From: Dehalococcoidia bacterium
GTDB lineage: Bacteria > Chloroflexota > Dehalococcoidia > SM23-28-2 > RBG-16-64-32
Length of the DNA: 18,016 nucleotides
Reading direction: 5' to 3'
Assembly (NCBI GenBank): GCA_030690405.1
Contig: JAUYGU010000168.1
Location: 1 to 18,016, forward strand
Positions 5,345 to 7,900 of the stretch are shown piece after piece (within the stretch, counting starts at the first letter, position 1; every line of letters starts with the position of its first letter). The position numbers were made by a program, and so were the translations under genes. The notes beneath the pieces are model-generated. The model saw only the letters and a list, made by a program, of their open reading frames with translations, was not told the origin of the DNA and ran no database searches.

Positions 5345-5381
5345 AAAATCAAAATCGCCCCACCGTTTGCAGCGGTGGGGC
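5345..5381 (-). terminator. attenuator terminator hairpin before argC
   Basis: On the minus strand GCCCCACCG (5373-5381) pairs perfectly with CGGTGGGGC (5357-5365) around a 7-base loop. A U-rich tract GATTTTGATTTT (5345-5356) follows. This is an intrinsic-terminator layout placed inside the untranslated leader, upstream of the first structural gene. That position is diagnostic of attenuation rather than end-of-operon termination. Confidence 0.75.
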
Positions 5382-5460
5382 TTCCGGTTTGTGCTCTGCT
5401 AGCGACTGCTAGCGACTGCCCGCGGGCACAGGGAACCCACCGCCGAACGAAGGTCGCGGT
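5370..5460 (-). promoter_or_regulatory. competing antiterminator / anti-antiterminator segments of the arg leader
   Basis: Segment 2, CGGCGGUGGGUUCC (5432-5445), pairs with GGAA (5382-5385) plus CCCACCGCUG (5370-5379). This gives 14 pairs, one of them G-U, with a two-base bulge at 5380-5381. The helix uses nearly the whole 5' arm of the terminator, so the two structures exclude each other. Segment 1, ACCGCGA (5454-5460), can pair with segment 2 at 5439-5446 (7 bp, one bulged G) and overlaps the leader-peptide Arg codons 12 and 14. Model (inference): a ribosome stalled at Arg codons blocks segment 1, segment 2 pairs with the terminator arm, and transcription continues. Without stalling, segments 1 and 2 pair and the terminator forms. 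Confidence 0.65.
5397..5419. repeat. 10-bp tandem repeat in the arg leader
   Basis: The plus strand reads CTGCTAGCGA twice in direct succession, then ACTGCC. On the transcript this lies just after the last sense codons of the leader peptide and contains its TAG, with a second TAG ten bases on. It falls in the spacer between antiterminator segments 2 and 3. Function unknown. Confidence 0.6.
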
Positions 5461-5495
5461 CGCGGTCGAGCGTCCCCGATGCGCAGCGCAGTCAT
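5409..5495 (-). CDS. candidate arginine leader peptide
   Basis: A 28-codon ORF begins with ATG at 5493-5495 and ends with TAG at 5409-5411. It contains Arg at positions 5, 10, 12, 14 and 28, with the run ARPRPRP at 9-15 read from GCT CGA CCG CGA CCG CGA CCT. CGA appears to be a minority Arg codon here: in the nearby argG start I count mostly CGC and CGG. The ATG lies only nine bases after the -10 hexamer, so the mRNA would start at or within about three bases of it. This is a leaderless arrangement known for attenuation peptides in some GC-rich bacteria. There is no Shine-Dalgarno. In a GC-rich genome Arg codons also arise by chance, so the case rests on the combination with promoter, terminator and antiterminator. 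Confidence 0.65.
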   Translation of the reverse strand: MTALRIGDARPRPRPSFGGGFPVPAGSR

Positions 5496-5504
5496 GATGG
5501 CGAC

Positions 5505-5533
5505 AGGATACGGACTCGTGAGGCGGGTGTCAA
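5505..5533 (-). promoter_or_regulatory. sigma-70-type promoter of the arg operon
   Basis: The minus strand carries TTGACA (5528-5533), a 17-base spacer and TATCCT (5505-5510). The predicted start site near 5498 is at the leader-peptide ATG. The -35 box begins nine bases beyond the MFS stop codon, so the arg operon has its own promoter. A GGGC-TGAA-GCCC hairpin containing the MFS stop codon immediately precedes it. Confidence 0.75.
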
Positions 5534-5541
5534 GCCGGGCT

Positions 5542-6999
5542 TCAGCCCGCGGGCACGGCGGCCGGATCATCGTCTTCCAGAACAACCGGCGTACGCATCG
5601 TCCCCGCGGCCGCTTTGTCGTCGATCAAGAGAGCGGCGAGTATGCCGAGGACCGAGAGGACGGCGGCGACGATGAACGCGTCGTGGAAGGCGGACAGGGC
5701 TCCGTCCCGCGTCAGCGGGCTACCCAGGACGGCGTCGTAGTGGGTCAGGCGGTTCGTGAGGACCGTCGCGAGAAGGGCCACGCCGAAGCTCGCCGCCACC
5801 TGCCGCCCGGCGTTGAAGATCGCGCTCGCCCGGCCCGCGTCCACGGAGCTTATCGTCGCAAACGTCGCCGTCTGGATCGGGATCAGGGTCAGCGCGAACG
5901 ACCAGCCGCGGGCGAGCATGATGAGGCGGATCCACCACTGGCTGGTCTCCAGACCGACAAGCAGGAAGACGAGGGTGGTGAGCATGACGCCGGTCATCCC
6001 GGCCATCATCATCCGCCGCGGCCCGATATGCCGGTAGAGACGCCCGGCGGGCTGGACCATCATGAACACGCCGATCGCCTGGGGGAATGTCGTCAGGCCG
6101 GACTCCAGCGGGCTCAGCCCCATCTCCGCCTGGAGGAGCAGCGGCAGCAGGAACAGAGCGCCCAGAAGGCCGCCCTGCCCCATGAACTGCACCACGTTCG
6201 CGGCACGGAACAGCTTGTCGCGGAACAGCCGCACGTCGATCATGGGCTCCTTCACCCGCAGCTCGACGGCCGTGAAGAGGGCGAGGAGGACCAGGCCGGC
6301 AGACCCGAACAGGGCCACCCGGCCGTCGTCGAGGCCGCGCGGGCCGGCCTCCGCCAGCGCGTACATCACTCCGGCGAGACCGACACCCCCGAGCAGCAGG
6401 CCCGGCACGTCCAGGCGGCCGGGGTGCGCCTGCCTCTCCTCGCGGAGGAAGGCTGCGGCGACGATCAGGCCGGTGATGCCGACGGGGATGTTGATGAGGA
6501 AGATCCAGCGCCAGGACTGGTACTCCACCAGGTAGCCGCCCAGCACGGGGCCGCTGGCCGGTGCCACAACGATCGGGATCGAGAGTACGGCAGAGGCGAC
6601 GGCGCGCTCCACCGGCGGGAAGGCGCGGAACAGCATCGCGGTTCCCACGGGGGTGAGCATGCCACCGGCGGCGCCCTGGAGCAGCCGGAAGGCGATCAGC
6701 GATTCGATGTCCCAAGCCATTCCGCAGAGGAACGAACCCAGCGTGAACAGGGAGAGCGCGAACATGAAGACGCGCTTGGTGCCGAAGCGGTCGCCCGCCC
6801 AGCCGCTGACCGGGATGAACACGGCCAGGCTGAGCAGGTAGCCCGTGACCACCCACTGGATCGTCGTCGTGGAGGCGGAGAAGTCCTTCGCCAGCGTGGG
6901 CAGCGCCACGTTGGTGATCGTCATGTCCAGCAGGTCCATGAAGATCCCGAAGACGAAGACGATCCCTACCAGCCACTTGTACTCCAGCCGCAGTCTCAC
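5542..6999 (-). CDS. DHA2-family MFS multidrug exporter
   Basis: This 485-residue integral membrane protein matches 14-helix drug:H+ antiporters of the EmrB/QacA type. Visible signatures are LLDMTITNVALP in helix 1 (about 23-34, motif D1), GWAGDRFGTKR in the loop between helices 2 and 3 (about 66-76, motif A), and GPVLGGYLVEYQSWRW (about 150-165, motif C, typical of exporters). Many further hydrophobic segments follow to the C-terminus. The start is a GTG at 6999. AGGAG lies about 11 bases upstream, a rather long spacing. It begins 25 bases after the LLM oxidoreductase and is probably co-transcribed with it. The substrate cannot be read from sequence. Confidence 0.93.
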   Translation of the reverse strand: MRLRLEYKWLVGIVFVFGIFMDLLDMTITNVALPTLAKDFSASTTTIQWVVTGYLLSLAVFIPVSGWAGDRFGTKRVFMFALSLFTLGSFLCGMAWDIESLIAFRLLQGAAGGMLTPVGTAMLFRAFPPVERAVASAVLSIPIVVAPASGPVLGGYLVEYQSWRWIFLINIPVGITGLIVAAAFLREERQAHPGRLDVPGLLLGGVGLAGVMYALAEAGPRGLDDGRVALFGSAGLVLLALFTAVELRVKEPMIDVRLFRDKLFRAANVVQFMGQGGLLGALFLLPLLLQAEMGLSPLESGLTTFPQAIGVFMMVQPAGRLYRHIGPRRMMMAGMTGVMLTTLVFLLVGLETSQWWIRLIMLARGWSFALTLIPIQTATFATISSVDAGRASAIFNAGRQVAASFGVALLATVLTNRLTHYDAVLGSPLTRDGALSAFHDAFIVAAVLSVLGILAALLIDDKAAAGTMRTPVVLEDDDPAAVPAG

Positions 7000-7024: not shown

Positions 7025-7900
7025 TCAGAGGGCGGCGACCTGCGGGATGACGTCGCGGCCGACGGCCTCGATGGGCTCCAGGCGCTCGACGCCGATCAGC
7101 ACGCCGATAGCTTTCTGCGCGCCCGCCTCGGCGAACCTCCCAAGCTGCTCCACCATCTGTCCCGTCATCTCCCCGCCCGACCCCGGATTCATGATGAAGT
7201 AGACCGTCTTCTCTATCTCCGCGTAGTCGCGGCCCTCGGCCTCGCAGTGCTCTCGCAACACCTCGAACTTGTGCCTGGCGGTATCGGCATCGCCGAAGAT
7301 GTTGCAGGCGTCGCCGTAGCGGGCGACCAGGCGCAGGGTCTTCCGCTCGCCACCGCCACCGATGAGGATCGGCGGCCGCGGCTTCCTCAACGGCTGCGGC
7401 GAGTTCAGCGTCTCCGCCAGCCGGTAATGCTTCCCCTCGAAGGGGCCGTTGTCGTCGCTCCACATCTGCAGGATAATCTGGAGCGCCTCCTCCAGCCGCT
7501 CGAACCGCTCCTTCAGCGGTGGGAACGGCACCCCCAGTCCCAGGTGCTCTCGCTCGAACCAGGCGGCGCCGATGCCCAGCCAGGCGCGGCCGCCGGAGAG
7601 CACGTCCAGCGTGCTGACCTGCTTGGCCAGGATGCCCGGATGGCGGTAGGTGACGCCCGTGCAGAGGGTCCCCAGCCCCACCCGCGACGTGTGGGCAGCG
7701 ATGTACGCCAGGGTGCTGTAACCCTCGAGCATGTCGTTTTCAGGCTGTCCCACCCCCGGGATCTGGAAGAAGTGGTCCATCACCCAGATCGACTCGAACC
7801 CCGCGTCCTCCGCCGTGCGGGCTATATCCGCCAGCCGAGGCCCCAGCTCCGGCGGCCCGCCGGGCCAGGTGTAATACGGTATCTGCAATCCGAGCTTCAA
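7025..7900 (-). CDS. LLM-class F420-dependent oxidoreductase
   Basis: This is a luciferase-like monooxygenase-fold protein of 291 residues. Such enzymes use F420 or FMN for hydride transfer to small organic substrates. It starts MKLGLQIPYYTW, has the barrel segment AEDAGFESIWVMDHFFQ (about 32-48), RVGLGTLCTGVTYRHPGILAKQ across the middle, and the cofactor phosphate region PPILIGGGGERKTLRLVARYGDACN. The start is a TTG at 7898-7900 with GGAGG five bases ahead, and a strong promoter lies just upstream. It is followed by the MFS exporter, so the pair may form a modify-and-export or detoxification unit (inference). F420 versus FMN use cannot be settled here, and the physiological substrate is unknown. 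Confidence 0.9.
   Translation of the reverse strand: MKLGLQIPYYTWPGGPPELGPRLADIARTAEDAGFESIWVMDHFFQIPGVGQPENDMLEGYSTLAYIAAHTSRVGLGTLCTGVTYRHPGILAKQVSTLDVLSGGRAWLGIGAAWFEREHLGLGVPFPPLKERFERLEEALQIILQMWSDDNGPFEGKHYRLAETLNSPQPLRKPRPPILIGGGGERKTLRLVARYGDACNIFGDADTARHKFEVLREHCEAEGRDYAEIEKTVYFIMNPGSGGEMTGQMVEQLGRFAEAGAQKAIGVLIGVERLEPIEAVGRDVIPQVAAL

Follow-up and report, generated by a model that had tools for sequence, protein, structure and literature searches.

A probable ribosome-mediated arginine attenuator with an apparently leaderless sensor ORF upstream of argCJBD in Dehalococcoidia

By what means is arginine synthesis controlled in bacteria in which ArgR, the usual arginine regulator, is not detected? 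The question is raised by an 18,016-nt stretch of DNA from a Dehalococcoidia bacterium (hereafter the window, meaning the whole stretch that was analysed), which carries the argCJBD operon behind a compact leader. Positions 5533-5331 of the minus strand contain, in this order, a promoter, a mini-ORF and a terminator, after which argC begins. As judged from its sequence elements, the leader is very probably a ribosome-mediated (trp-type) transcription attenuator for arginine. The features on which this reading is based are given below; the conservation mentioned refers to a set of 21 leaders, comprising that of the window and those of 20 relatives, which were grouped by eye into ten lineages.

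5533-5528, minus strand: -35 box, TTGACA (TTGACA or TTGACT in 21/21 leaders)
5510-5505, minus strand: -10 box, TATCCT, with a 17-nt spacer from the -35 box; more weakly conserved in relatives than the -35 box
5495-5409, minus strand: arginine-rich mini-ORF, 28 codons (ATG at 5495-5493) and a TAG stop (5411-5409), apparently leaderless
5468-5454, minus strand: putative sensor codons Arg10, Arg12 and Arg14, each CGA
5475-5462, minus strand: segment 1, predicted protector strand sequestering segment 2, within an ORF-wide hairpin (5493-5454 with 5450-5414)
5445-5432, minus strand: segment 2, predicted 5' strand of the antiterminator, ORF codons 17-22
5385-5370, minus strand: segment 3, predicted 3' strand of the antiterminator, which takes in the 5' arm of the terminator (5381-5373)
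5381-5357, minus strand: intrinsic terminator hairpin (3:4), 9 bp
5356-5343, minus strand: T-rich tail, GATTTTGATTTTCT
5342-5336, minus strand: GGAGGAG, by inspection the likely ribosome-binding site of argC
5330-4263, minus strand: argC, first gene of the operon (TIGR01850, 389 bits)
4251-3016, minus strand: argJ (TIGR00120, 433 bits)
2939-2166, minus strand: argB (TIGR00761, 243 bits)
2155-953, minus strand: argD (TIGR00707, 460 bits)

The promoter (TTGACA-17-TATCCT) is a 10/12 match, of which the whole window contains five, as compared with 0.7 +/- 0.7 in shuffled sequences. A further promoter-like site on the minus strand, TTGACG-17-TACAAT (7967-7939, also 10/12), lies ahead of an F420-dependent LLM oxidoreductase ORF starting at 7900. 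The ATG of the mini-ORF sits 9 nt past the -10 box and the encoded peptide is MTALRIGDARPRPRPSFGGGFPVPAGSR, while the terminator combines its 9 bp with a 7-nt loop and the T-rich tail (-19.8 kcal/mol). Folding of the entire leader is better than that of 200/200 shuffles (z -3.8). An earlier note on this DNA had proposed the same architecture, and its coordinates, promoter, 9-nt gap, 28-codon ORF with three CGA codons and 9-bp terminator were all recovered in the sequence. Its 14-pair antiterminator (5445-5432 with 5385-5370, interrupted by a 2-nt bulge) is likewise as described, and is equalled in 0/300 dinucleotide shuffles of the ORF (0-18/300 for the nine other lineage representatives). The note had also pointed to a third segment that sequesters the antiterminator strand, which turns out to be real and larger than claimed: in the absence of a ribosome, the ORF is predicted to fold on itself (5493-5454 with 5450-5414), with 5443-5432 pairing with 5475-5462, a stretch that includes the Arg10 codon and the first nucleotide of the Arg12 codon. 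In the window, the mini-ORF stop codon is spanned by a tandem duplication, AGTCGCTAGC (5417-5398), which forms an additional small hairpin and is present as a single copy in L072-L076.

Counting from the first nucleotide of the -35 box, the ATG is reached after 38-39 nt in 20/21 leaders and after 35 nt in L083. Standard promoter geometry places the RNA start 0-4 nt ahead of such an ATG, which leaves no space for a ribosome-binding site, and the mini-ORF is therefore likely to be leaderless, with transcription expected to start at about 5498-5495; in this respect the 9-nt gap has been taken further than in the earlier note. RNA polymerase would thus start about 0-4 nt ahead of the ATG, so that the ribosome would have to load at the extreme 5' end of the RNA (leaderless initiation). 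When charged tRNA-Arg is short, the ribosome would stall at CGA codons 10-14 and open the ORF-wide protector hairpin (1:2), and segment 2, once freed, would pair with segment 3 before segment 4 is made, which would prevent the terminator from forming and allow argCJBD to be transcribed. When arginine is plentiful, or when no ribosome has loaded, segment 2 would be covered or sequestered and the terminator (3:4) would form. The leaderless start, the ribosome stalling and the direction of the arginine response are all inferred here from the sequence.

The leader is a conserved property of the order to which the nearest relative of the window belongs. A scan with ArgC yielded 71 loci, the nearest of which are found in Chloroflexi MAGs (84-86 % identity); the order comprises 25 genomes, 24 of which have an argC match, and the leader precedes argC in 20 of these 24, including L083, which joined the set upon inspection and whose argC lies further downstream. 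The same genome that contains the second, partial argC-like match L096 (G006:C37; residues 114-355, 61 % identity) also has a leader-bearing argC. The remaining four argC-bearing genomes of the order (L082, L084, L087 and L088) have argC without the leader, and also lack detectable PF02863, the ArgR C-terminal domain. Among the relatives searched, PF02863 was found in 0/25 genomes and PF01316 in 0/12, while the same searches were positive in E. coli, B. subtilis and others; MAGs may be incomplete, and on this absence from the relatives examined an ArgR regulon was rejected as a candidate. Outside the order, none of eight informative argC loci of the class (from L097-L105) has such a leader, as judged by script and by eye, the ninth being uninformative because L099 has just 22 nt upstream. 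When the window is compared with L072-L076, identity is 79-86 % in the leader and 33-45 % in the 150 nt upstream of the -35 box, which indicates that the leader stays with argC while its upstream flank diverges. The earlier note had proposed examining relatives for conservation of the mini-ORF and of the alternative helices, and both are conserved: beyond the presence of the leader in 20/24 argC-bearing genomes, arginine richness and CGA usage are kept while the peptide drifts, and helices 2:3 and 1:2 are partner-specific overall, with exceptions.

The mini-ORFs of the 21 leaders have 21-36 codons, including 5-10 for arginine. In ten lineage representatives, arginine accounts for 63/252 residues, as compared with 6.2 % in 12 long ORFs of the window (P 1.6e-21), and CGA for 29/63 of the arginine codons, as compared with 9/269 in the long ORFs (P 1e-16), both backgrounds having been taken from the window alone rather than from each relative. 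The rarity of CGA in the window's long ORFs is another point on which the earlier note could be extended. Dinucleotide-shuffled leaders already yield 18.5 +/- 2.3 % arginine; the codon bias is the cleaner signal, since the leaders are CG-rich and their shuffles are arginine-rich too. Arginine gains and losses may offset each other: relative to L074-L076, Arg is replaced by Gly at codon 7 of the window and Gln by Arg at codon 10, and in L073 Arg is replaced by Ser at codon 5 and Pro by Arg at codon 15, so that the number of arginines stays at five. The tRNA-Arg anticodons found by ARAGORN were UCG, CCG, CCU and UCU in G003 and GCG, CCG, CCU and UCU in G008, with no ACG (inosine) gene in either of these probably incomplete genomes; provided that this set is correct, CGA is decoded by tRNA-Arg(UCG), with no inosine tRNA involved. 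With respect to the position of the stop codon, 17 leaders are late-stop (the window, L072-L080, L083, L086, L089, L090 and L093-L095) and four are early-stop (L081, L085, L091 and L092). Arg is the last codon before the stop in 16 of the 17 late-stop leaders, the exception being L079 (Arg-Pro), whereas the final residue is Leu or Pro in the four early-stop ones.

A covariance model of the leader (R1) recovered the 20 argC leaders of the order, i.e. the set from which it was built, at E <1e-13, with no second strong copy and with the next site at 0.0013. In a class sample of 393 genomes, E <=0.01 was reached in 31 genomes, namely those 20 and 11 others. Among the weak matches viewed (L130, L136, L138, L139 and L142) a leader was seen only in L138; the other weak matches are L137, L140, L141, L143-L145 and the G086 site. 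L138 is located upstream of a DAHP synthase gene in another order of the class, in which 4/7 genomes have a DAHP match, one of them (L236) without a gene start. At all three of the available gene starts, namely L233 (G143), L234 (G091) and L235 (G033, the same site as L138), a similar, apparently leaderless ORF rich in Tyr/Phe codons is found 35-39 nt after TTGACA, the runs observed being EYFIYY, YRYYDFSY and YGYYYFSY. A GC-rich hairpin follows each of these ORFs by inspection, and was scored by script in L138 alone. The three leaders are thus apparently Tyr/Phe attenuators of the same design, as far as the sequence tells. In the order of the window itself, no such leader was found at 87 DAHP, TrpE-N and LeuA loci, where the script recovered four controls and produced 30 candidate lines at new loci, none of which was judged a leader by eye; a comparison of the leader with a plasmid collection gave chance-level matches only (best E 0.2).

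Translation of Arg-Pro runs may be slow, and ligand sensing by a nascent chain is conceivable; the same helices could in principle be set by an arrest peptide, the ribosome being halted by the nascent Arg/Pro-rich chain itself, which might respond to free arginine inside the exit tunnel. The frequent occurrence of RPRP or RRPR and the terminal Arg of 16/17 late-stop leaders would agree with such a switch. Nevertheless, no conserved arrest residues were seen, the peptides of the different lineages sharing little besides arginine richness by inspection, and the preference for rare CGA (29/63) points to the codon and its tRNA, whereas arrest by the chain would be indifferent to the choice of Arg codon. 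The G-run of segment 2 is not kept in one frame, 7/21 leaders differing in this respect, which suggests that RNA rather than peptide is conserved there, and the occurrence of a Tyr/Phe variant at DAHP synthase agrees with codon sensing. An arrest peptide is therefore considered unlikely in comparison with attenuation by ribosome stalling at hungry arginine codons.

The attenuation reading is further supported by the helices themselves. Segment 2 is a G-rich mimic of the 3' arm of the terminator placed inside the ORF, and a 2:3 helix of 7-15 bp can be formed in 21/21 leaders. The 2:3 score is 29.2 for matched and 24.5 for swapped-lineage partners, with a permutation p of 0.0006-0.0032 over 20 choices of representatives, obtained after one revision of the rule for picking segment 2 (the first rule took the wrong G-run in five window-clade leaders); L078, L086, L089 and L090 are exceptions, falling slightly under the swapped mean. 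A narrower test, restricted to the extension of 2:3 beyond the terminator arm, gave p 0.0083-0.0190. Unrestricted RNAduplex did not discriminate (matched -23.9 vs swapped -23.4 kcal/mol); by this measure L081 and L085 were no better than shuffles, and the window was equalled in 45/500. The protector, which folds the ORF on itself, reaches -41.5 kcal/mol when matched and -34.2 kcal/mol when swapped (p 0.0002-0.0007; late-stop lineages alone, p 0.0002-0.0022); L080 runs counter to this, its matched protector being weaker than swapped ones, and L086, L090 and L091 fall slightly short of one of their two swapped means. On the whole, these sequence comparisons point to co-evolution of helices 1:2 and 2:3. 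All 21 leaders have the terminator and its seven inner pairs (columns 146-152); it covaries little, with 2/9 pairs compensatory and a covariation score that shuffles reach in 42/500. RNAalifold on a MAFFT alignment returned the terminator and a 3-pair helix only, in our opinion because the register of 2:3 shifts between lineages.

The hairpin is a good terminator on its own, and a same-strand ORF stops at 5542, shortly before the -35 box, so that the locus could be conceived as no more than a terminator and a promoter, with the hairpin ending upstream transcripts or attenuating constantly and the mini-ORF being incidental. Such an arrangement is very improbable, since the sequence upstream of the -35 box varies among relatives while the leader is kept at argC, and since it leaves unexplained the Arg and CGA bias, the near-constant spacing from -35 to ATG and the partner-specific 1:2 and 2:3 helices. 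Least credible of all is a T-box, a riboswitch or a repressor-controlled leader: arginine T-boxes are known in other bacteria according to the part of PMC1262725 consulted, but no Rfam family reached its gathering threshold in the window, a lenient threshold gave just two unrelated matches at 14-15 bits in the leader, the T-box was rejected with no covariance-model match in either, and the ArgR C-terminal domain was found in none of the 25 genomes. Some further regulator could act at the promoter in addition to the proposed attenuator.

The trp, his, leu, ilv, thr and phe leader-peptide attenuators of Proteobacteria are the classical cases of ribosome-mediated transcription attenuation, a mode of control known in its trp-type form for many amino acids. 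The argC leader resembles them in its mini-ORF rich in end-product codons, its three predicted, mutually exclusive helices (protector, antiterminator and terminator) and its expected logic, but would differ in sensing arginine, in its apparently leaderless ORF and, in window-type leaders, in a stop codon located past segment 2. The fungal arginine attenuator peptide is also encoded by a short upstream ORF that responds to arginine; it belongs to eukaryotic translational control by a nascent peptide and, unlike the argC leader, involves no terminator. Leaderless polycysteine short ORFs in mycobacteria, going by the title of a 2020 paper by Canestrari and co-workers, reportedly attenuate a downstream operon, and resemble the present, apparently leaderless mini-ORF in being short, enriched in one amino acid and located before an operon; they differ in the amino acid, cysteine instead of arginine, and here there is an intrinsic terminator. 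The mycobacterial cysteine case is termed translation attenuation in a passage of PMC13236596, which also describes a uORF attenuator for branched-chain amino acids in the 166-nt leader of Mycobacterium tuberculosis ilvB1NC; that leader likewise couples uORF sensor codons to a terminator and an antiterminator in a non-proteobacterium, and differs in its amino acids and its length. Histidine leader peptides of Firmicutes, rich in their amino acid and equipped with a terminator and an antiterminator, occur in lineages without other usual regulators, as stated in part of PMC9413887, and differ in the amino acid and the phylum. The carAB leader of Pseudomonas aeruginosa is likewise a leader peptide ahead of a gene feeding arginine synthesis, but in the passage of PMC4997734 consulted pyrimidines are held responsible for a possible attenuation, and arginine is said to act at the level of transcription. 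For Actinobacteria, the portion of PMC1262725 consulted states that conserved RNA structures were not seen ahead of arginine operons. Among the matches listed (titles, abstract starts and passages), no bacterial arginine leader-peptide attenuator was found, within a scope that excludes most subscription literature and the survey of Lopatovskaya et al. 2010, which might list arginine; none is described in the passages drawn from PMC2965389, PMC8632094, PMC1262725, PMC4997734, PMC4833913, PMC13236596 and PMC9413887.

A broader interpretation, whose chances we regard as about even, is that Dehalococcoidia possess a general leaderless attenuator chassis with swappable sensor codons (Arg at argC and Tyr/Phe at DAHP synthase), the arginine version of which reads the minor isoacceptor tRNA-Arg(UCG) via the rare CGA codon and replaces ArgR. 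In such a chassis the sensor ORF would occupy the first bases of the RNA, and ribosomes would therefore load once RNA appears; Tyr/Phe ORFs at DAHP synthase are what a codon-sensing chassis predicts. The arginine attenuator, if it is real, suggests how arginine synthesis is controlled in a lineage in which ArgR is not detected, adds Chloroflexota to the bacteria that use leader-peptide attenuation with leaderless ORFs, and offers a case in which the tuning of a charge sensor by codon choice (CGA) can be tested.

The proposed switch was also considered in a crude model, in which the RNA made before segment 4 is folded with 27 nt hidden by the ribosome. For the window, the predicted antiterminator fraction is 0.00 without a ribosome, 0.81 with the ribosome at Arg5, Arg10 or Arg12, 0.28 at Arg14 and 0.81 at Arg28 or the stop. 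In 21/21 leaders there is an Arg codon ahead of segment 2 at which a ribosome yields an antiterminator fraction of 0.50 or more, while without a ribosome the fraction is below 0.05 in 12/21 and 0.25-0.91 in 9/21; the predicted rise upon stalling is clear in the window and most late-stop leaders, with little change in L078, L083, L085, L091 and L092. At equilibrium, most states of the full-length RNA favour the terminator (window, 0.99-1.00; L074, L076, L078, L081, L083, L085 and L091 show exceptions), which implies that the switch must be kinetic, decided by timing. A ribosome at the stop codon of the window leaves segment 2 uncovered, and the model still gives 0.81 antiterminator, the corresponding values for the 17 late-stop leaders being 0.04-0.86. 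The model allows a helix that spans the ribosome at Arg28 or the stop, which we think is sterically unlikely; in terms of this model, termination at high arginine in window-type leaders would have to depend either on the ribosome, whose bulk sits between segments 2 and 3, or on the protector folding again. The early-stop leaders L081, L085, L091 and L092 share the classical trp geometry, in which the stop codon lies inside segment 2, and a ribosome placed there reduces the predicted antiterminator to 0.00.
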